Shown here piece after piece: positions 8,202 to 18,582 of a stretch of 34,134 nt of DNA (the stretch's first letter is position 1; the number at the start of each line of letters is the position of its first letter). The DNA lies in NCBI GenBank assembly GCA_015493225.1, contig WGDO01000013.1, positions 1-34,134 on the forward strand. The letters run 5' to 3'. Below the pieces are notes generated by a model. The model was not told where the DNA came from. It did not search any database and saw only the letters and a program-made list of their open reading frames with translations. Made by a program: the position numbers and the translations under genes. Source of the DNA: Patescibacteria group bacterium (GTDB lineage Bacteria; Patescibacteriota; Minisyncoccia; Moranbacterales; DUUL01).

Positions 8202-9299
8202 ATGACATACAATAAAAATATTCCATATAATGATTTACCACTTTTGCCACCAAAGGTTAATTTTGACGATGTAGAATTGTTAAAATTGGTAAATAAAGCA
8301 AATAATTCTATTTTTGAATTAAAAGGAATTACAAATATTTTACCAAATAAGTTTATTTTATTGTCACCTTTGTCAGTAAAAGAAGGTGTTGCCAGCAGTG
8401 GTGTGGAAAATATAAATACAACAGTTGCGGAAGCTTTAAAAGCTGATATATTATATGAAAAATCTGAGTTATCTGGAGCGGAAAAGGAAGTCTTGAATTA
8501 TAGAGAGGCTATTTTTAGTGGTTTTGATATTTATAGAAAAAAAGGATTTCTTGCCACAAATGATATTATTAAAATTCAGTCTGTATTAGAGCCAAACAAA
8601 AAAGGGATTAGAACAATTCCGGATGTGAAAATTAAAAACACTAAAACAAATGAAGTGATATATTCTCCTCCTGCCGGAAAGGATTTTATCTTAGATAAAT
8701 TGCAAAATTTTGAACAATATTTTAATAATGAAGATGGCTTTGATGATTTAGACCCTTTAATAAGAGTTGCTGTTATGCATTACCAGTTTGAGGCGATACA
8801 TCCGTTTTTAGACGGCAACGGTAGAACAGGTAGAATTTTAATGGTGCTATATTTAACGATGATGAAACGATTGGATGTACCAACGTTATTTATCAGTAAA
8901 TATATTTTGGATACAAGAGATAAGTATTATAAACTTCTTGCGGGAATTACTGAAAATAATGATTGGTTAAAATTTGTAAAGTATATTATCAAAGGGATTG
9001 ATTCTCAGGCCAAGGAAACTGCAAAAAAGATTTTAGAAATTCAGAATCTTATTGAAAATCAAAAGGAAACTGCTCTTAGTAAAGATAGTAAAATTTTAGA
9101 TGATTATAAAATGACAGAATATTTATTTTCAAGTCCATTTTATACGCAGGAAAGATTATCTAAATTTATGAATGTGCATAGAAATACAGCGGCTAGGTAT
9201 TTTAAAGAATTAGAAAGAATTGGATTGATAGAAAAATTCAAGTACAAGAATGAAAATATTTATTATAATAAGAAATTTCTAAATTTATTGAGTTATTAG
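8202..9299 (+). CDS. Fic family AMPylator-like protein with N-terminal inhibitory motif and C-terminal winged helix
   Basis: The 365-aa product starts with a Fic_N-type region. The segment SSGVEN (65-70) fits the inhibitory (S/T)xxxE(G/N) motif of class II Fic proteins. The full catalytic motif HPFLDGNGRTGR begins at His200, so NMP transfer (usually AMP from ATP to a hydroxyl side chain of a target protein) is expected. Residues from about 300 to the end form a winged-helix-like DNA-binding domain (RLSKFMNVHRNTAARYFKEL). It could bind the palindromic half-sites at 8123-8181 and regulate its own gene. Targets are unknown. Neighbours are glycan genes unrelated to it, and direct repeats of the GT4 gene end flank it, so it was probably acquired. 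No separate antitoxin gene is visible. Confidence 0.93.
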   Translation: MTYNKNIPYNDLPLLPPKVNFDDVELLKLVNKANNSIFELKGITNILPNKFILLSPLSVKEGVASSGVENINTTVAEALKADILYEKSELSGAEKEVLNYREAIFSGFDIYRKKGFLATNDIIKIQSVLEPNKKGIRTIPDVKIKNTKTNEVIYSPPAGKDFILDKLQNFEQYFNNEDGFDDLDPLIRVAVMHYQFEAIHPFLDGNGRTGRILMVLYLTMMKRLDVPTLFISKYILDTRDKYYKLLAGITENNDWLKFVKYIIKGIDSQAKETAKKILEIQNLIENQKETALSKDSKILDDYKMTEYLFSSPFYTQERLSKFMNVHRNTAARYFKELERIGLIEKFKYKNENIYYNKKFLNLLSY

Positions 9300-10660: not shown

Positions 10661-11482
10661 ATGAAATCAAAAAGGCCAAAAATTAGTGTGGTGATGCCGT
10701 TCTATAATGCGGAGAAATTTTTAGATGAGTCTATTCAGAGTATTTTAAATCAAACTTTTACTGATTTTGAGTTTATTATTATTAATGATGCATCAACTGA
10801 TAATTCTGATGAAGTTGTGCAAAAATATTTAGATGATGAAAGAATTGTTTATGTAAAGAATAAAGAAAATAAAGGTATCGTTTATAACTTAAATCACGGG
10901 ATTAAAATTGCAAAAGCAGATATAATTGCCCGTATGGATGGAGATGATATTTCAATGCCAGAAAGATTCGAGAAACAATATGAGTATTTACGACATCATG
11001 AAGATATAACTATTGTGGGTGCATATGCTCAAGTAATTGATGGAAATGGCATAAAAAAAGAGATTATGAAATTTGAATCAAATACAATAAAAATGTCCAA
11101 AACTTTTTTCTACATAGACAGTTTTTTGCACCCATTAGTTATGTATCGCAAAAAAGATATTATTGATGCTGGGTTGTATCGCGAGCAATTTAATTTGGTT
11201 GAAGATAACGATTTATATTTGAGATTATTCTTTGGCGATTACAAAGGAGTAAATTTAGATAGTATATTATTGAAATATAGAAAACATAGTAACTCAACTG
11301 ACAAGTTCTTTAAGATAAAAATGTGGAGATTATTCAAGATGAGAATAGAGTTATTGCGAGAAAATAAAACACAAGCAGATATAAAAAAATATTTATATAC
11401 ATTTGCAAATTTAATATTAGGATTGATTGTAACGTCAAGAATGAGGAATGGAATAGTAATTTTTTTAAAGAATTTACTATGA
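10661..11482 (+). CDS. GT2 glycosyltransferase
   Basis: ATG at 10661, 4 bp after the previous stop, is chosen over an in-frame TTG at 10616 inside the preceding gene. From ATG the 273-aa protein begins in the usual GT2 way, with KISVVMPFYNAEKFLDESI. INDASTDNS (41-49), DGD (93-95) and VEDNDLYLRL, holding the catalytic acid, are present. The C-terminal segment (about 240-272) is hydrophobic. The gene's TGA overlaps the ATG of the next gene (ATGA), indicating translational coupling. It would act in the same glycan assembly pathway as its neighbours. Confidence 0.9.
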   Translation: MKSKRPKISVVMPFYNAEKFLDESIQSILNQTFTDFEFIIINDASTDNSDEVVQKYLDDERIVYVKNKENKGIVYNLNHGIKIAKADIIARMDGDDISMPERFEKQYEYLRHHEDITIVGAYAQVIDGNGIKKEIMKFESNTIKMSKTFFYIDSFLHPLVMYRKKDIIDAGLYREQFNLVEDNDLYLRLFFGDYKGVNLDSILLKYRKHSNSTDKFFKIKMWRLFKMRIELLRENKTQADIKKYLYTFANLILGLIVTSRMRNGIVIFLKNLL

Positions 11483-14400
11483 AATTTATTTTGAAACAAA
11501 TAAGGAAAAAAATATTTTATATTATTCTTATTTTGATAAGTATACTATTTTATCATAAGTGGTTTACATCCGCTATTTTTTTTAATGGCGATTGGGGTTA
11601 TTTATTTAAAACTTCCATGATTGATACATCCCATTTTTATGTGTGGGAAGCTTTTAATCATATTGGAACATTACCAGTGGCGTTATTTAAAATGCCTGTA
11701 GATTTTTTAATGGCGTTATTTGTGCATGTCTTGTCCCCTGAGATGGTTATAAAAATATTTTATTTTTATCCAATTATATTCATTTTACCAATTGGTGCTT
11801 TTTTATTAGTTAAAGAAATTGTTGAAGACAATCTATCATCTTTTGTGGGTGCAATAATAATTTCCTTTAACACATATTTTTTATCAATAAATACAGCTGG
11901 ACATTTAGGACTTATTGTAGCAAATTCTTTTGCATTGCTAGGTTTGTTTTTATTTTTTACATATATTAATAATAATTATAAAAATCACAAAGTATTATTA
12001 AGTTCGTTTTTATTATTGACATTATCAGGATTTTACGATTTTAGAGTTTTCTATATATATTTTTTTATAATGTTTTTTTATGAAATTTTTAATTTTAAAA
12101 ACAATAATTCTTATTTAAAATTTAAAAATTTTATATTAATTGGTGTAATTACCATTTTTTTAAACACATTTTGGATACTTGGAATATTGAAGAGTGGTCG
12201 TTTGTCAGCAAATGAAGTTTTATCTAGACCACTTTTTGGTGATCAGTTTTGGTCATTACTTTACGCAATAACTTTATATCATCCTTTTTGGTCAGGATCC
12301 AAGCCTGAATGGTTTATTCTTCATAATATCCCAGTGTTGTTTTATTTGACGCCACTATTATCTTTTACTGCTATTTTTTTATTTAATAAAAATAAACAAC
12401 TTATTTTTTGGTCAGTAATTGGTTTGCTTGGAATATTTCTTTCTAAGCAATCAGATTCACCCTTTGTAAATGTATATCAATGGTTATATGATAATTTTCC
12501 AGGCTTTAATGCATTCAGGGAAGCAACTAAATTTTATATTTTGATAATATTGTCATATGCAATACTCATGTCTTTTTTAGTAGGAAAAATGAAACTGTTT
12601 TTTAATAAATATGTACAAATTTTATTTGCAGTAGGAATATCTTGTTTATTTCTTTGGAATGGTATACCCATGGTTAATGGTGAAATAAAAACAATATTTA
12701 CACAAAGAAACATACCCACGGATTATGTTATGTTTAATAATTTTTTAAAAAGAGATACATTTTTTTCTAGAGTTTTATGGATACCGACAATATCAACGTG
12801 GATGTTTTATTCAAATAAACATCCTCAATTAGCTATTGGCTCAATAGATAATAATAGATGGATGAAGATTCTTGATATTAATCCCGTTGACAATAATAAT
12901 ATTCAGAGTATAAATGTTTTAAATAGTCATTCTGCTAACTTGATATTAGACATACTAAACGTTAAATATGTCATTGTTCCCATAGAAAGCAGTGATGAAG
13001 ATATTGATTTTTTTGTACAATATGGGCTGAAACAAAACCCAAACATTCGTCAATGGTATATTGACCAGTTAGACAAACTTGATTATTTGCAAAAAATTGA
13101 TATCGGCACAAAAGAGCTTGTTGTTTATGAAAATAAAGATTATAAACCATACATAAGAGGTATTGATAATTTGCTTGCATTTAATAGTACCAAAAACCTT
13201 GAAGATAAATATAGTTTTGTAAATGACACTTTATATAAAGACTTCGATTTTTTAGTTAAAAATGAGAAGAAAAAAATACCAAGTGAAAATGTTATACAAG
13301 TTTTTGAAGATGCAAAAAGTGAAGATATTAAAAGTAATGAAGTAGTTGATGTTGAGAGTGTGGGACATAAAGATATACTTTATCGTAACCCTAACAAAAG
13401 AGACCTGGTTATTAAAACTGCCGATGACAAGAGTGAAATTGTTGCCATCAAAAAAGAACGATTGATTGTTAATGGTAAAGAGTTGGTTGATAAAGATAAC
13501 ACTCAGACCATTTTTACTCTTAATGATGATTATTATAATTATTATATTAAGGATGGCGGGACAGTAATTCCTTTTGTAAACAACGCTAGATTGAATTCGG
13601 AAGTTCCAAATGAAATATATAAAATGGTTGCGGATAATGTTATTAAAAATGGTGATTTTAATAATTCTCTTTGGCAAGATAAAGTTGGTGATTGTCATCA
13701 TTACGACGATGGAGCAGTTTTATCTATGAAAAAAGTTTTGGGAGAAAGTAGTATCAACTTAAAAACCCCCCATCCCCCCCTTCGCGAAAAGGGGGATGAC
13801 CCCCTTGATCCTACTTCGCCCGATGAGCTTCGCGGAACAGGCGCCGGGGGTGGGCATAATTACGCTTTACAACTGGAGGCGACAAAACATATTGCCTGTA
13901 CCAGCCAAAAAAATATTCCTGTTGAGTCAAATAAAGAATATTTGGTGAAATTTGATTATAAACCGGTGAATGCCAAGCAAGCGGGATTTTATCTTGGATT
14001 TAAAAACAGCGGTGAAGAAAATTATCAAAGTTATTCGGAAAGATTGGCAACACCTGATTATACCAGAGGTGAATGGCAACATTATGCTAAAATAATTCGT
14101 GTTCCTCAGGGAACAACCGATTTGTCTTTTTATTTATATGCTTATGAAAGCGATGGAGAAGAGAATAATATTGTTCAATATGATAATGTAAGTGTTCAAC
14201 CGGTAGAGTTGGTGCAAACTATAAATCCGGAAGAAAAAAATTCTTTTGTTAAAGTCGATTTGCCAAAAACAAACAATGGGGAATATAAACTTGAATACAA
14301 AGATGAACAGCATAATTTTGCCAATAAAATACCAAACCCTTCTTTTGAAAATGGTTTATGGGCAAAGAAGGTGGGGGATTGTAATCATTATGATGATAAT

Positions 14401-15333
14401 CCGGTGCTTGGGATGAAAAGAATTACAGTCGAAAGTCGAAAGTCCAAAGTCGAAAGTCAGAAGGATAAATATGCATTGCAGTTTGAGGCGACTAGACATA
14501 CTGCTTGCTTGAGCCAAAAAGGAATACCCGTCAAGGGAAAAACAGAATACTTGTTTGAGTTTGATTATCAAGGCGAAAAAGCCAAACAAGCCGGTTATTA
14601 TATTATTTTTAATGATAGTAACAAAACAGTTATTAACGAAAAGGTTCCTATCACCGAAAAAGATTGGCAAACTTTTCATAAGCGATTTACCACTCCGGCA
14701 GATGCTACCAGTATGACTTTGTATATTTACGGATATTCTAAAGATGAAAAAACAAAAGTTATTACTCGCTATGACAATTTTAAACTGATTGAGCTACCCA
14801 ATATTGCCAACAGATATTATTTGGTGAGTGAATCTGAAGTGGAAACAGCCAAACCAAAAGAAACGACCTTTGATCTCATCAACCCAACCAAAAAACTGGT
14901 GCATATTAAGGGTGCGACAAAGCCGTTTTATTTAACCATGAGCGAGAGCTATCACGACAAATGGCAAGCCGAGCTTAACAACGGTAAGGTCAATGGATTC
15001 TTTAAGAGCTGGGTGCCGTTTGTTCATCCTGATGTAATTGCCAATGATAAACATTTTAAGTATATGACATTTTTGAATGGGTGGTATATAAATCCGCAGG
15101 ATTTATGTGAGTCAAAAGTCAAAAGTTTACCCCGTCGGATGACTTGGGGTCAAAAGTCTATAAAGTCAGGTTGTACAAAAAACCCTGATGGCTCATATGA
15201 TATTGAGATGGTTATTGAATTCACCCCTCAAAGATATTTTTACTTGGGATTATTGATATCGGGTATTACTTTCATAACCCTGATTGGATATTTAGGGTAT
15301 GATTTTATTCGCCGTCGTAAAAATATCTTGTAG
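11479..15333 (+). CDS. Giant GT-C-like membrane protein with two carbohydrate-binding-like modules
   Basis: The 1284-aa product has about 12 N-terminal transmembrane helices (to residue ~400), a long extracytoplasmic region and a last transmembrane helix (about 1253-1277) before a RRRKN tail. An acidic first loop (FNGDWGYLF) and overall plan suggest a GT-C enzyme using a polyprenyl-linked donor, comparable in plan to AftD/DUF3367-type arabinofuranosyltransferases; this is inference. Two homologous modules (about 717-907 and 947-1107, sharing VGDC.HYDD, ALQ.EAT.H.AC.SQK and AKQAG.Y) look like CBM4/9-type sugar-binding domains. Repeats are inserted in frame at about residues 760-793, 982-995 and 1211-1231. 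The last 104 bp of the coding end recur at 15623-15726, beyond the GIY-YIG gene. Start overlaps the upstream GT2 by 4 bp. Confidence 0.8.
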   Translation: MKFILKQIRKKIFYIILILISILFYHKWFTSAIFFNGDWGYLFKTSMIDTSHFYVWEAFNHIGTLPVALFKMPVDFLMALFVHVLSPEMVIKIFYFYPIIFILPIGAFLLVKEIVEDNLSSFVGAIIISFNTYFLSINTAGHLGLIVANSFALLGLFLFFTYINNNYKNHKVLLSSFLLLTLSGFYDFRVFYIYFFIMFFYEIFNFKNNNSYLKFKNFILIGVITIFLNTFWILGILKSGRLSANEVLSRPLFGDQFWSLLYAITLYHPFWSGSKPEWFILHNIPVLFYLTPLLSFTAIFLFNKNKQLIFWSVIGLLGIFLSKQSDSPFVNVYQWLYDNFPGFNAFREATKFYILIILSYAILMSFLVGKMKLFFNKYVQILFAVGISCLFLWNGIPMVNGEIKTIFTQRNIPTDYVMFNNFLKRDTFFSRVLWIPTISTWMFYSNKHPQLAIGSIDNNRWMKILDINPVDNNNIQSINVLNSHSANLILDILNVKYVIVPIESSDEDIDFFVQYGLKQNPNIRQWYIDQLDKLDYLQKIDIGTKELVVYENKDYKPYIRGIDNLLAFNSTKNLEDKYSFVNDTLYKDFDFLVKNEKKKIPSENVIQVFEDAKSEDIKSNEVVDVESVGHKDILYRNPNKRDLVIKTADDKSEIVAIKKERLIVNGKELVDKDNTQTIFTLNDDYYNYYIKDGGTVIPFVNNARLNSEVPNEIYKMVADNVIKNGDFNNSLWQDKVGDCHHYDDGAVLSMKKVLGESSINLKTPHPPLREKGDDPLDPTSPDELRGTGAGGGHNYALQLEATKHIACTSQKNIPVESNKEYLVKFDYKPVNAKQAGFYLGFKNSGEENYQSYSERLATPDYTRGEWQHYAKIIRVPQGTTDLSFYLYAYESDGEENNIVQYDNVSVQPVELVQTINPEEKNSFVKVDLPKTNNGEYKLEYKDEQHNFANKIPNPSFENGLWAKKVGDCNHYDDNPVLGMKRITVESRKSKVESQKDKYALQFEATRHTACLSQKGIPVKGKTEYLFEFDYQGEKAKQAGYYIIFNDSNKTVINEKVPITEKDWQTFHKRFTTPADATSMTLYIYGYSKDEKTKVITRYDNFKLIELPNIANRYYLVSESEVETAKPKETTFDLINPTKKLVHIKGATKPFYLTMSESYHDKWQAELNNGKVNGFFKSWVPFVHPDVIANDKHFKYMTFLNGWYINPQDLCESKVKSLPRRMTWGQKSIKSGCTKNPDGSYDIEMVIEFTPQRYFYLGLLISGITFITLIGYLGYDFIRRRKNIL
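13757..13857. repeat. In-frame C-rich plus CTTCGC repeat in module 1 of the giant protein
   Basis: TTAAAAACCCCCCATCCCCC, a CCCCTTCGCGAAAAGGGG hairpin and GATCCTACTTCGCCCGATGA follow each other. They add about 33 residues (PHPPLREKGDDPL...) at a point where homologous module 2 carries a different repeat. Confidence 0.75.
14424..14463. repeat. In-frame AAAGTC repeat in module 2 of the giant protein
   Basis: AGTCGAAAGTCGAAAGTCC and further units encode VESRKSKVESQKD, between the KR.T and YALQFEA parts of the second module. Confidence 0.7.
15110..15170. repeat. In-frame AAAGTC/ACCCCG repeat near the 3' end of the giant gene
   Basis: GTCAAAAGTCAAAAGTTTA, the hairpin ACCCCGTCGGATGACTTGGGGT and CAAAAGTCTATAAAGTC encode SKVKSLPRRMTWGQKSIKS. 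The same composite occurs at 6997-7063 and in intergenic copies. Confidence 0.75.
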
Positions 15334-15726
15334 AAATTTATTATTTTTGTGAAAATTATGTATTATGTTTATGTTTTACTAAGTAAAGTTGACAATAAGA
15401 GATATATCGGATTTACAAGTGATCTAAAAAGGCGTTTGGAGGAGCATAATAATGGAGAAAATAAGTCTACAAAGTATAGGAGACCATTAAAACTGATTTA
15501 TTATGAAGCGTGTTTAAGTCAAAAGGATGCAACAAGACGAGAAAAATATTTGAAAGGGCCTTGGGGATATAAGTATCTTAATAAGCGCCTTAAATTTTCA
15601 CAAAAATAATAAATTTCGGGGGTTCACCCCTCAAAGATATTTTTACTTGGGATTATTGATATCGGGTATTACTTTCATAAGCCTGATTGGATATTTAGGG
15701 TATGATTTTATTCGCCGTCGTAAAAA
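15220..15726. mobile_element. GIY-YIG cassette with 25-bp terminal inverted repeats between 104-bp direct repeats
   Basis: 15220-15323 (coding end of the giant gene) equals 15623-15726 except for one base (15278 C versus 15681 G). Between the copies, 15333-15357 is the exact inverse of 15593-15617. The start codon of the nuclease gene is the base after the left arm, and its stop codon lies inside the right arm, so the 285-bp unit holds nothing but the gene. The downstream copy would end the giant protein with RRRKKNK, the present one with RRRKNIL. The unit therefore entered at a gene end that was duplicated in the process. Confidence 0.8.
15358..15609 (+). CDS. GIY-YIG nuclease domain protein (URI/YhbQ-like)
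   Basis: ATG 15358 is preferred over an in-frame GTG at 15349, since family members start MYYVYVL. The 83-aa product is a stand-alone GIY-YIG domain: YVYVL (3-7), RYIGFT (15-20), the basic LKRRLEEHN (23-31) and REKYLKGPWG with the metal-binding Glu62. Related single-domain proteins cut DNA with Mg2+; their biological roles are mostly unknown, while larger GIY-YIG proteins are homing endonucleases. The perfect terminal inverted repeat tightly enclosing the gene and the duplicated flank of the giant gene indicate a recent selfish insertion. The right inverted repeat encodes its last residues (FSQK). Confidence 0.92.
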   Translation: MYYVYVLLSKVDNKRYIGFTSDLKRRLEEHNNGENKSTKYRRPLKLIYYEACLSQKDATRREKYLKGPWGYKYLNKRLKFSQK

Positions 15727-15754
15727 AAATAAATAAAGAAACAAGATACAAAAC

Positions 15755-16091: not shown

Positions 16092-16712
16092 ATGAAATTC
16101 TTTGATTTTGAACAAAAAATGGCAAATTATCCGGTTTTTAGCGCCAGAGAGTTAAAAACTATTCTTTTTGCTGAAAAAAATATTTTAGTGCAAGTGTCTT
16201 TTTGGTTGAAGAAGGGGTATATCAAAAAAGTGAAAAAAGGGCTTTATGTATTAACATCGGCAATCGACAGGGTTGACCCAATTGTTTTAGCTGATAGAAT
16301 TTATAGTCCTTCATATTTGAGTTTGGAGTATGCTTTAAATTATTATGGAATTATTCCAGATATCCCAGGCACTTACACTTCGGTGAGCACTCGTAAGACT
16401 GAAAATTTTAATAATAAATTTGGTAATTATTCCTATCAAAAAATTAAAAAAGAATTATTCACCGGGTATGAGATTATTCAGGATGGGGTTTTGTCCTATG
16501 GAATTGCTAGCCCGGAAAAAGCTTTGTTTGATTATTTATATTTAAACAAAAATAAGTTTGTGGCAGAGTTTAATTTTTGGAAAGAGTTGAGAATTGATGA
16601 GGAGTTTAAGTTTAGAAAAAAGGAGATTGAGAATTACAAAAAATTATTTCAAGATAAAAAAGTTGATTTGTTAGTGGATAGTTTATTAAAATATCAAAAA
16701 GATGCTAGATAA
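16092..16712 (+). CDS. abiEi: AbiEi-type antitoxin / transcriptional regulator
   Basis: The 206-aa product starts with a winged-helix region (residues ~1-55: PVFSARELKTILF, KKGYIKKVKKGLYVL). The AbiEi C-terminal domain follows (DPIVLADRIYSPSYLSLEYAL, YGIASPEKALFDYLYL). In type IV toxin-antitoxin systems the AbiEi protein both represses the operon and counters the AbiEii nucleotidyltransferase. The operon has a clear promoter, an inverted-repeat operator and a ribosome site. The next gene overlaps by 11 bp, as is usual for this pair. Repeats border the operon on both sides, which suggests acquisition. Confidence 0.9.
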   Translation: MKFFDFEQKMANYPVFSARELKTILFAEKNILVQVSFWLKKGYIKKVKKGLYVLTSAIDRVDPIVLADRIYSPSYLSLEYALNYYGIIPDIPGTYTSVSTRKTENFNNKFGNYSYQKIKKELFTGYEIIQDGVLSYGIASPEKALFDYLYLNKNKFVAEFNFWKELRIDEEFKFRKKEIENYKKLFQDKKVDLLVDSLLKYQKDAR

Positions 16713-17502
16713 AAAAAATATTGAAAAATATGCCAAGCAAAATAATATTCCACTTTCTAGTACTAGAAGGTTGCTGACTGAATATTTGCAGGCAGAAATT
16801 TTGCAAATTTTATCTCGTTCTGAGTTTGGAGCAAGGTTATCTTTTTTGGGTGGAACTTGCTTAAGGTTTGCTTATAAAATTGAAAGATTTTCGGAAGATT
16901 TAGATTTTGATTTAATTGTTAGGGAAAAAGTTGATTTTCAGGAATTAGCTGATTATTTTAAAAAGGAACTAAGTAGGCTTGGTTTTGTTGTAGATACAAG
17001 AGTCAAAAGGACGGAAAATATTTTTGTTATTTTTGTGAAATTTTCTAAGGTAATGAAGCAAATTGGAATCAGTAATTTAGAAGACCAAAAATTAAAGATT
17101 AAGTTTGAGGTAGACCCAAAGCCATTAAAAAATATTAAATATCATTCGGAGATTATTTCAGCCTATGGGAAAAGTTTTAATATTATTATCAATGATTTGG
17201 AAACTCTTTTTGCTCAGAAGATTTTGGCAATTGCTTTTCGTCCCTATCAGAAGGGAAGGGATTTTTATGATTTGGTTTGGTTTTTGAGTCAGAAAAATGT
17301 TGAGCCGAATTATAAGATTCTTCAGGAGGCGGGGATTAAAATTAGTAATCGAGAGGAGTTGATTGATTTTTTACAAAAACAGGCCAAGAAAAGTGATTTA
17401 AAACAGGCAGTAAAAGATGTGGAGAGGTTTCTTTTTTATCCGGAGCAGGCCCAGTGGATTTTAAAGTTGCCTGAGTATTTGGAGGGATTTAGGAGTTTGT
17501 AA
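16702..17502 (+). CDS. abiEii: AbiEii-type nucleotidyltransferase toxin
   Basis: The 266-aa product carries the nucleotidyltransferase fold signature: LGGTCLRFAY (49-58), SEDLDFDL (64-71), a downstream acidic strand, and the later Lys-rich region LFAQKILAIAFRPYQKGRDFYDLVWFL typical of AbiEii/AbiGii. Family members (for example MenT) add nucleotides to tRNA acceptor ends and stop translation; phage defence by abortive infection is known for some. The ATG lies within the end of abiEi (11-bp overlap), so translation is coupled. All key residues appear intact. The stop codon lies within the first unit of an AAAGTC repeat array. Confidence 0.9.
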   Translation: MLDKKNIEKYAKQNNIPLSSTRRLLTEYLQAEILQILSRSEFGARLSFLGGTCLRFAYKIERFSEDLDFDLIVREKVDFQELADYFKKELSRLGFVVDTRVKRTENIFVIFVKFSKVMKQIGISNLEDQKLKIKFEVDPKPLKNIKYHSEIISAYGKSFNIIINDLETLFAQKILAIAFRPYQKGRDFYDLVWFLSQKNVEPNYKILQEAGIKISNREELIDFLQKQAKKSDLKQAVKDVERFLFYPEQAQWILKLPEYLEGFRSL

Positions 17503-17645
17503 AGTCGAAAGTCCTTAAAGTCCTTAAAGTCGAAAGTCCTTAAAGTCGAAAGTCCTTAAAGTCGAAAGTCCATAAAGTCTATAAAGTTTACCCTGTTAAA
17601 GCTTTGATAGGGTGAATCCCGTCGGATGACTTGGGGTGGAAAGTT
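17499..17645. repeat. AAAGTC-family tandem array with ACCCCG-type end
   Basis: About ten AAAGTC units in the forms GAAAGTCCTTAAAGTC and CATAAAGTCTATAAAGT run from the abiEii stop. An ACCCTGTT...AGGGT hairpin and GTCGGATGACTTGGGGT follow. The composite ends match 15110-15170. Confidence 0.8.
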
Positions 17646-17652
17646 TTTTAAT

Positions 17653-17802
17653 AATTTCTAATTTTCAATTTTCAATTCTTAAACAATGTCCTAATTTTTT
17701 AATGTTCTAATTTCCCAAAATAAACAGTTTGTTTAGAAAATTTGAAAATTCGTAAATTAAATAATTGTTTGAAAATTAGAAATTGAAAATTGAAAATTTT
17801 AA
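17653..17802. repeat. AT-rich inverted-repeat element (MITE-like), copy 1
   Basis: A roughly 150-bp imperfect palindrome: left-arm words (AATTTCTAATTTTCAATTTT, AAACAATG) return inverted in the right arm (AATTGTTTGAAAATTAGAAA), around AAACAGTTTGTTT. Copy 2 lies at 25865-26019 and a half copy at 6784-6857. It carries no ORF. Confidence 0.65.
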
Positions 17803-17811
17803 ATTATATAT

Positions 17812-17863
17812 AAAAACATGCGAGATATTAAGATAAAATGGAAATTTTGAGGTGAGGAGAGGG
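17812..17863. repeat. Copy of the 5' end of the gene at 18951, left flank of the zeta gene
   Basis: AAAAACATGCGAGATATTAAG and the following bases match 18945-18998 except for two substitutions and a 2-bp gap. In this copy the frame ends after about ten codons, so it is a dead fragment. The zeta gene and its small partner lie between the two copies. Confidence 0.8.
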
Positions 17864-17898
17864 TTTAATGATTTTATTTAAATAATTAATTGGGAACA

Positions 17899-18582
17899 AT
17901 GAATCAATTTGAAGAAAGTATCAAGAAAAAGGCTATTGATTATGTAAAGAAAAATAAAAAGAAAATTATAGAAGAAGTTGTTGGAGATGCTAATCCAGTT
18001 AATAATGCTGTGGCAATTTTTATGGCTGGTTCACCTGGAGCAGGAAAAACAGAATTTTCTAAACATTTTATTGAACAAGAGTTTAACAATCAAAATATTG
18101 TTAGAATTGATCCAGATGAAATTAGAGAGAGGTTGCCAGGATATAATGGAAAAAATGCATATCTTTTTCAAAAAGCTGTGATAAAAGCTGTTGAAAAAGT
18201 ATTGGATTATGTATTTGCTAAAAATATTCATTTTTTATTGGATGGTACATTTTCCAATCAAAATGTTGCAAATAAAAATATTAAAAGAGCTATTAAACAC
18301 AATCGAATTATTCAGATTAATTATGTTTATCAACCGCCAGAGATTGCTTGGAATTTTACCCAGGAGAGAGAATTGGTTATGAAGCGAAGAATAACGAAAG
18401 AGGTCTTTGAGGATGGATTGAAAAATTCAAGATTGGTGGTTGCAAATATTAAAAAGGAATTTAAAAATAGAGTAATAGTTGATTTAATAACTCGTAATAT
18501 TAAAACGAATAAATATAAATATTATTTTAATAGAAGCGTTGCAGAAATAAATAATATTGACAAAAAGAGTAATATGGTATAA
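17899..18582 (+). CDS. Zeta toxin family kinase
   Basis: ATG 17899 (MNQFEES) is preferred to a TTG three codons earlier. The 227-aa product has Walker A GSPGAGKT (44-51), RIDPDEIRERLPGY (69-82) and a predicted Asp-bearing catalytic region (LLDGTFSN) typical of zeta/PezT kinases, which phosphorylate UDP-GlcNAc and block peptidoglycan synthesis. An interplay with the surrounding nucleotide-sugar pathway is possible but inferred. No epsilon-type antitoxin lies upstream. A 59-aa gene starts 10 bp downstream. The pair lies between two copies of the beginning of the gene at 18951, suggesting insertion. Confidence 0.88.
   Translation: MNQFEESIKKKAIDYVKKNKKKIIEEVVGDANPVNNAVAIFMAGSPGAGKTEFSKHFIEQEFNNQNIVRIDPDEIRERLPGYNGKNAYLFQKAVIKAVEKVLDYVFAKNIHFLLDGTFSNQNVANKNIKRAIKHNRIIQINYVYQPPEIAWNFTQERELVMKRRITKEVFEDGLKNSRLVVANIKKEFKNRVIVDLITRNIKTNKYKYYFNRSVAEINNIDKKSNMV

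Follow-up and report, generated by a model that had tools for sequence, protein, structure and literature searches.

A GIY-YIG nuclease gene between two copies of a host gene end

The window analysed here, a 34,134-bp stretch of DNA, belongs to a 1.3-Mb Patescibacteria genome bin of 87 contigs. It includes the gene for a 1284-aa membrane protein with a carbohydrate-binding domain, and the 3' end of this gene is present twice: positions 15220-15323 and 15623-15726 are identical at 103/104 positions. Between these direct copies, a perfect 25-bp inverted repeat (15333-15357 versus 15593-15617) tightly encloses a short open reading frame. Its ATG, at 15358, is immediately 3' of the left arm, and its stop (15607-15609) lies inside the right arm. 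The first-pass annotation had described the 104-bp copies, the arms and the placement of ATG and stop, and each proved exact to the base. The encoded protein scores 65 bits as a GIY-YIG domain (Pfam cut-off 22.6) and has 83 aa, little beyond the catalytic domain. An additional 13-bp inverted repeat, absent from that annotation, connects the beginning of the duplication with the unit's left end (AAGATATTTTTAC, 15231-15243; GTAAAAATATCTT, 15317-15329). We distinguish the following parts, all on the + strand; the limits of the unit are those argued for below.

11479-15333, +: host gene for the giant membrane protein (CBM_4_9 carbohydrate-binding domain); the proposed unit supplies the last codons of this gene
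15220-15223, +: TTCA, putative left copy of the proposed 4-bp target-site duplication
15224-15622, +: proposed mobile unit, 399 bp, CCCC...GGGGG, with probable boundaries
15224-15323, +: c1, functional copy of the host gene 3' end, within the unit
15231-15243, +: X, target codons (after Q: R-Y-F-Y), 5' half of a covarying stem
15317-15329, +: X', perfect reverse complement of X; the native gene end lacks X'
15333-15357, +: left arm of the perfect 25-bp inverted repeat
15358-15609, +: GIY-YIG nuclease ORF, 83 aa
15593-15617, +: right arm of the inverted repeat, holding the ORF stop
15618-15622, +: terminal G-run of the unit
15623-15626, +: TTCA, right copy of the proposed 4-bp duplication
15627-15736, +: c2, resident 3' end of the host gene, displaced and now detached from it; c2 has a stop of its own (15734-15736)

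The nuclease ORF is the only one in the unit, which contains no known transposase, and no integrase, transposase or site-specific recombinase was detected among the 20 window ORFs scanned. An Rfam scan of the window returned no family above threshold, group I and II introns and riboswitch-like RNAs included. The window likewise gave no rRNA match, and a tRNA search of it found nothing. The 25-bp arm has no further copy in the 1.3-Mb genome, with up to 3 mismatches allowed, and there are no solo copies. Elsewhere in the window, genes for an AbiEii-type nucleotidyl transferase toxin and, next to it, a zeta-toxin kinase lie just 3' of the unit (16702-18582), and a Fic protein is encoded at 8202-9299.

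The same codon is occupied in three other lineages

The three closest relatives of the 83-aa nuclease are about 67-71% identical and come from other Patescibacteria. A protein scan covering 84,980 genomes yielded the two closest, L166 (Magasanikbacteria, 71%) and L167 (Shapirobacteria, 68%), and a gene-end search of 380 genomes of the phylum yielded a fourth occupied locus, L247. In the window and in these three loci, homologous membrane-protein genes are occupied at one and the same codon, and the parts follow one order: c1, stop, arm, nuclease, arm, G-run, c2. The junctions are kept across all four (left ..AGAAATT[TC]AT.A; right ATTT[CG]GGGGG). The left arm also holds the stop of the upstream gene in L166, L167 and L247, and the right arm holds or abuts the nuclease stop in all four. 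The nuclease is intact and conserved in 4/4 loci, with invariant residues at the GIY and YIG motif positions together with one Arg, one His and one Glu.

Many unoccupied sites, with one gene end and no nuclease, came out of the same gene-end search. Twenty homologous gene ends read in detail each have a single end, with neither nuclease nor duplicate, and a duplicated flank without an insert was not seen among them. CCCC is present at 4/4 occupied sites versus 2 of about 20 empty ones, as counted by eye. The window-type subfamily is rare, with four loci found in all, from genome bins; a search for more members in the order and class of G421 gave none of this type. We found no near relative of the window with an empty site, and a search of its GTDB family gave no homologue of the host C-terminus beyond the window genome. 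In phage and plasmid records, nuclease relatives are only 38-47% identical; viral contigs contain one relative at 60% and four short partial matches.

The first-pass annotation had proposed a minimal GIY-YIG cassette, bounded by inverted repeats, that regenerates the end of its host gene. Occupation of the homologous site in three other lineages supports this proposal. Further GIY-YIG copies with matching inverted repeats do exist, since the same unit recurs in other lineages and its wider clade occurs in other genes.

A wider nuclease clade at tRNA and rRNA genes

We built a tree of 133 small GIY-YIG proteins of the class, whose shortness makes for weak trees. Nearly all cases with arms or directly downstream tRNAs fall in one half (83 rows, support 97/93). 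The other half we take, by sequence resemblance, as UPF0213/COG2827, small GIY-YIG proteins (PDB 1zg2, 1ywl) with the same domain and size as the window nuclease; hugging inverted repeats occur there in 0/50 cases and a direct repeat in 1/50. Members of the first half, hereafter the clade, are found repeatedly at tRNA genes, 16S and 23S rRNA genes and stop codons. Hugging exact inverted repeats of at least 14 bp accompany 20/84 clade genes versus 2/694 other ORFs of the same loci, and flanking direct repeats with a score of at least 18 accompany 23/84 versus 2/149. The repeats around clade nucleases exceed chance.

A same-strand tRNA lies directly downstream of 32/84 clade genes versus 7/149 other ORFs of the same loci. 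For 28 of 42 downstream tRNAs, a remnant of the tRNA, mostly from nucleotide 1, is present upstream of the nuclease, and a few upstream tRNAs have 3' remnants downstream of it. Nuclease lineage tracks tRNA type (16 changes versus 22.8 when shuffled; 0/200). The type is kept across host families; the 7 Leu-CAA rows fall together, at a fork whose exact position is weakly supported. The window genome contains a second case, a GIY-YIG gene in tRNA-Glu(TTC) on contig C82 (L003, 1471-1743); a second copy of the first 35 nt of that tRNA lies on the other side of the gene. At L094 and L135, the nuclease gene lies inside a 16S and a 23S rRNA gene, respectively, with the same repeat layout. Relatives of one GIY-YIG protein, P0001, at 55-71% identity, also appear in records labelled Planctomycetota, Desulfobacterales, Bacteroidales, Omnitrophota and Cloacimonadota. 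We discounted synteny with tRNA-Gln in tree half A, which probably reflects vertical linkage.

The left end of the unit covaries with its target

X' comprises the last 10-13 nt left of the arm and is reverse-complementary to X, the R-x-F-Y target codons located 94-101 nt upstream, at the start of c1. Each X' matches its own X at 10/10 positions in 4/4 loci and the X of other loci at 6-9. Among 48-144 synonymous spellings, the host's own codon choice is the sole fit to X', and composition shuffles equal the match in at most 0.02%. Duplex energies are best for own pairs, and in L166, L167 and L247 pairing extends across a bulged CCCC. RNAalifold found this stem and no other, with 4 compensated double changes. 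At the 20 empty gene ends, X-type complementarity reaches 5-7 of 10. Complementarity of this kind is not a general feature of the clade, because it is significant at 1/19 tRNA-type loci.

X' can be read as a guide, as a selected RNA stem or as the trace of snap-back copying. The last of these, quasipalindrome correction that leaves covariation as a by-product with no guide or selected structure, is a possibility we take seriously, and it would be compatible with the mechanism we favour below. The A-richness of native gene ends could allow priming on the target codons, which are rich in T, and X' is short; however, the match is 10/10 in 4/4 loci, with several varying positions always compensated. 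More speculatively, single ~80-aa GIY-YIG units might find their targets partly by base pairing. X' would then be a guide that changes with host codon use, and a carried or duplicated piece of the target gene (a protein-gene 3' end, a tRNA 5' or 3' part) would keep that gene whole. We advance this idea tentatively.

Unit ends and the divergence of the two gene ends

The first-pass annotation had treated the 104-bp repeat as an unusually long target duplication, a reading that is probably wrong. The window reads TTCA/CCCC...GGGGG/TTCA/CCCC and L166 reads CGAG/CCCC...GGGGG/CGAG/CCCC, so that exactly 4 bp (TTCA and CGAG, respectively) fall outside a unit bounded by a C-run and a G-run. Similar C-runs on the left and G-runs on the right are found in 63 related units, 276-319 bp long when inverted-repeat ends are used. 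Exact 4-bp direct repeats flank 7/59 related units versus 0.8 with ends shuffled. Because related units show these ends and 4-bp repeats above the shuffled level, we infer that the unit spans 15224-15622, that is, an ordinary unit extended on the left by 100 bp from the host gene end. The target duplication would be 4 bp, a post hoc reading for the window, and the remaining 100 bp are better read as a carried gene end. The duplication is not uniform across loci. The 4-bp repeat is missing from L167 and L247, whose right ends each have an additional hairpin; many related units of the LKSYLTG group show 0-1 bp instead of 4; and the one clean comparison with empty relatives, for a related unit at an atpD end (L290 versus L291-L295), gives 0-1 bp. 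We had also considered that an 'FLSLTG' clade always duplicates the stop codon, and dropped this in favour of the 4-bp end repeat.

The copies c1 and c2 agree at 103/104 positions in the window, at 82/98 in L166 and at roughly two thirds of positions in both L167 and L247; a comparison across hosts gives 51-70% identity. The differences in L166, L167 and L247 are mostly synonymous, with 4, 12 and 4 nonsynonymous codons versus 11.1, 20.6 and 14.9 expected, and 0/5000 simulations were as low. This bias suggests that both copies evolved as functional ends before they were joined; the divergence at these three loci fits two ends that were each functional prior to meeting. A foreign origin of c1 cannot be demonstrated in the window because c1 and c2 differ there at 1/104 positions.

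These results bear on the possibility of a true long target duplication, in which the nuclease or a partner nicks the strands ~100 bp apart and fill-in around a 295-300-bp unit produces the two 104-bp copies. The near-identity of the copies in the window is as this scheme would have it, and both edges of the L166 duplication, 98 bp long, lie at homologous gene positions. Against it stand the synonymous-biased divergence of the copies in L166, L167 and L247, a unit that would lack the left C-run, unlike 63 related units, and the fact that X' follows the X of c1, not c2. We therefore regard a long target duplication as unlikely.

A probable homing-like mechanism that would leave the host gene whole

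We consider it probable that the unit is a minimal homing-like mobile element, 399 bp long and with the GIY-YIG nuclease as its sole gene, and that it restores the host gene end. The steps that follow, cleavage and the direction of copying included, are reasoned from sequence comparison. Near the 3' end of a host gene that is still unoccupied, the nuclease would cut at the C-run within the P-Q-R codons, and repair or insertion would then set the 399-bp unit at the cut, with a 4-bp duplication. The host protein would be restored because the unit starts with its own copy of the last 100 bp of the gene, followed by a stop; the old end would be pushed downstream, unused. Pairing of the inverted arms would place the nuclease ORF in a hairpin. 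In the least certain step, X' probably helps the ends to recognise the target or to fold. A single uninterrupted gene end in relatives of the window species that lack the unit would be predicted to read ...TTCACCCCTC.... Unlike at a classical split homing site, the uncut target sequence persists in c1, which counts against the homing-like reading.

Alternatively, the host 3' end could be a general recombination or attachment hotspot, with the nuclease as passive cargo, brought in by a phage-type integrase or by the uptake of DNA that contains gene ends. In two other genomes, the end of this host gene is duplicated around different inserts, a methyltransferase-like gene in L254 and an NYN-like gene with three end copies in L261, and for this reason the gene end may be such a hotspot. 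However, the ORF scan of the window revealed no enzyme of this type; nuclease, arms and junctions are common to all four loci; and the clade behaves alike in tRNA and rRNA genes. Passive carriage into a hotspot thus appears decidedly improbable. It is barely credible that the nuclease is a passenger in a palindromic, non-autonomous element (REP/RAYT or MITE-like) mobilised in trans: C-run/G-run palindromic ends are general and short non-coding palindromes with the same ends lie beside some relatives (a 54-bp copy in G049, others near L147, L172 and L204), but the window arm is confined to the unit itself, whereas REP/RAYT systems have many palindrome copies per genome, and the nuclease has stayed intact at every window-type locus.

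Relation to known systems

For the homing-like unit that we favour, the closest precedent is the fungal mitochondrial mORF carrying a foreign C-terminus, as presented in PMC3630166. That paper describes mORFs with C-terminal duplication in Allomyces atp6 and in Glomus sp. atp6, atp9 (GIY-YIG), cox2 and nad3. Judged from its description, mORFs and the window-type unit share a host gene with an in-frame inserted C-terminus, an endonuclease ORF and a displaced, putatively native C-terminus, as well as two diverged ends and apparent spread between species. Our loci show the corresponding features: an endonuclease ORF between in-frame and displaced gene ends, the same site in unrelated hosts, and empty alleles. 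In contrast, mORFs as given there are mitochondrial, with larger ORFs and inserts. The window unit comes from a bacterium, its nuclease has 83 aa, and related units lie at tRNA and rRNA genes. The target-complementary left end, the tight inverted arms and the C-run/G-run ends of the window-type unit do not figure in that paper's description of mORFs. The window unit would work like a fungal mORF, but in a bacterium, near catalytic-domain size and with C-run/G-run palindromic ends.

A survey of CPR rRNA genes reports GIY-YIG-encoding insertions that are neither group I nor group II introns and judges them to lie outside spread by homing (PMC11270868). The insertions it presents involve the same nuclease superfamily and the same bacterial radiation, and L094 and L135 are of that kind. 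Inverted arms, tRNA sites and gene-end regeneration, found here, do not feature in its account of the rRNA insertions. For this clade, we argue that the gene-end and tRNA data oppose that judgement.

The first-pass annotation had also raised an RNA-hairpin-based mode as in rRNA intervening sequences. This idea fits the relatives in 16S (L094) and 23S (L135) rRNA genes, which have the same repeat layout; it does not extend to the window unit, which lies outside any rRNA gene. Both this unit and 23S rRNA intervening sequences are hairpin-forming inserts harmless to the host gene, but the latter are dealt with by RNase III processing, whereas the window unit lies at a protein gene end that a spare copy would restore. 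Elements of the IS200/IS605 family resemble the window unit in their palindromic ends and in a short subterminal stretch that is complementary to the target. Unlike them, the window unit has no HUH transposase, only the GIY-YIG nuclease, and a duplication of about 4 bp is proposed.

We found no description of bacterial units of this kind in the open-access literature, subscription papers and preprints being outside the scope of the search. If our reading is correct, the locus holds a very small self-spreading nuclease-gene unit whose host is spared by a spare gene end, a bacterial counterpart to the fungal mitochondrial elements. It would also be a clean, testable case of an element end covarying with its target, and would help explain the abundance of tiny GIY-YIG genes, often beside tRNA genes, in Patescibacteria.

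Additional observations at related loci

Several loci show further features around unit ends. The 5' tRNA remnants at L056, L186, L203, L217 and L223 contain a GC-rich hairpin (CCCGCC...GGCGGG) that splits the D-loop (..CAGTGG / TAGAGC..); this looks like the insertion of a non-coding C-run/G-run palindrome. Around position 1733 of L196, at a tRNA-Ile, the G-run end of the unit seems to provide the GGG with which the tRNA starts, and CGCG is repeated on either side. L142 and L151 (G242 and G238, of one genus) have the same unit ends at two different genomic sites, which suggests recent movement. A 54-bp non-coding hairpin at about 15025-15078 of L321 (G049:C1) has the ends ACCCTGTGAAAT / ATTTCACAGGGTAA, those of the G049 GIY-YIG unit L148. 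At L015, complex long direct repeats (64 and 66 bp) surround a GIY-YIG gene with no tRNA nearby. Finally, L191 (2144-2785, Lutibacter agarilyticus) contains two tandem GIY-YIG genes, and the start of the next gene is duplicated.
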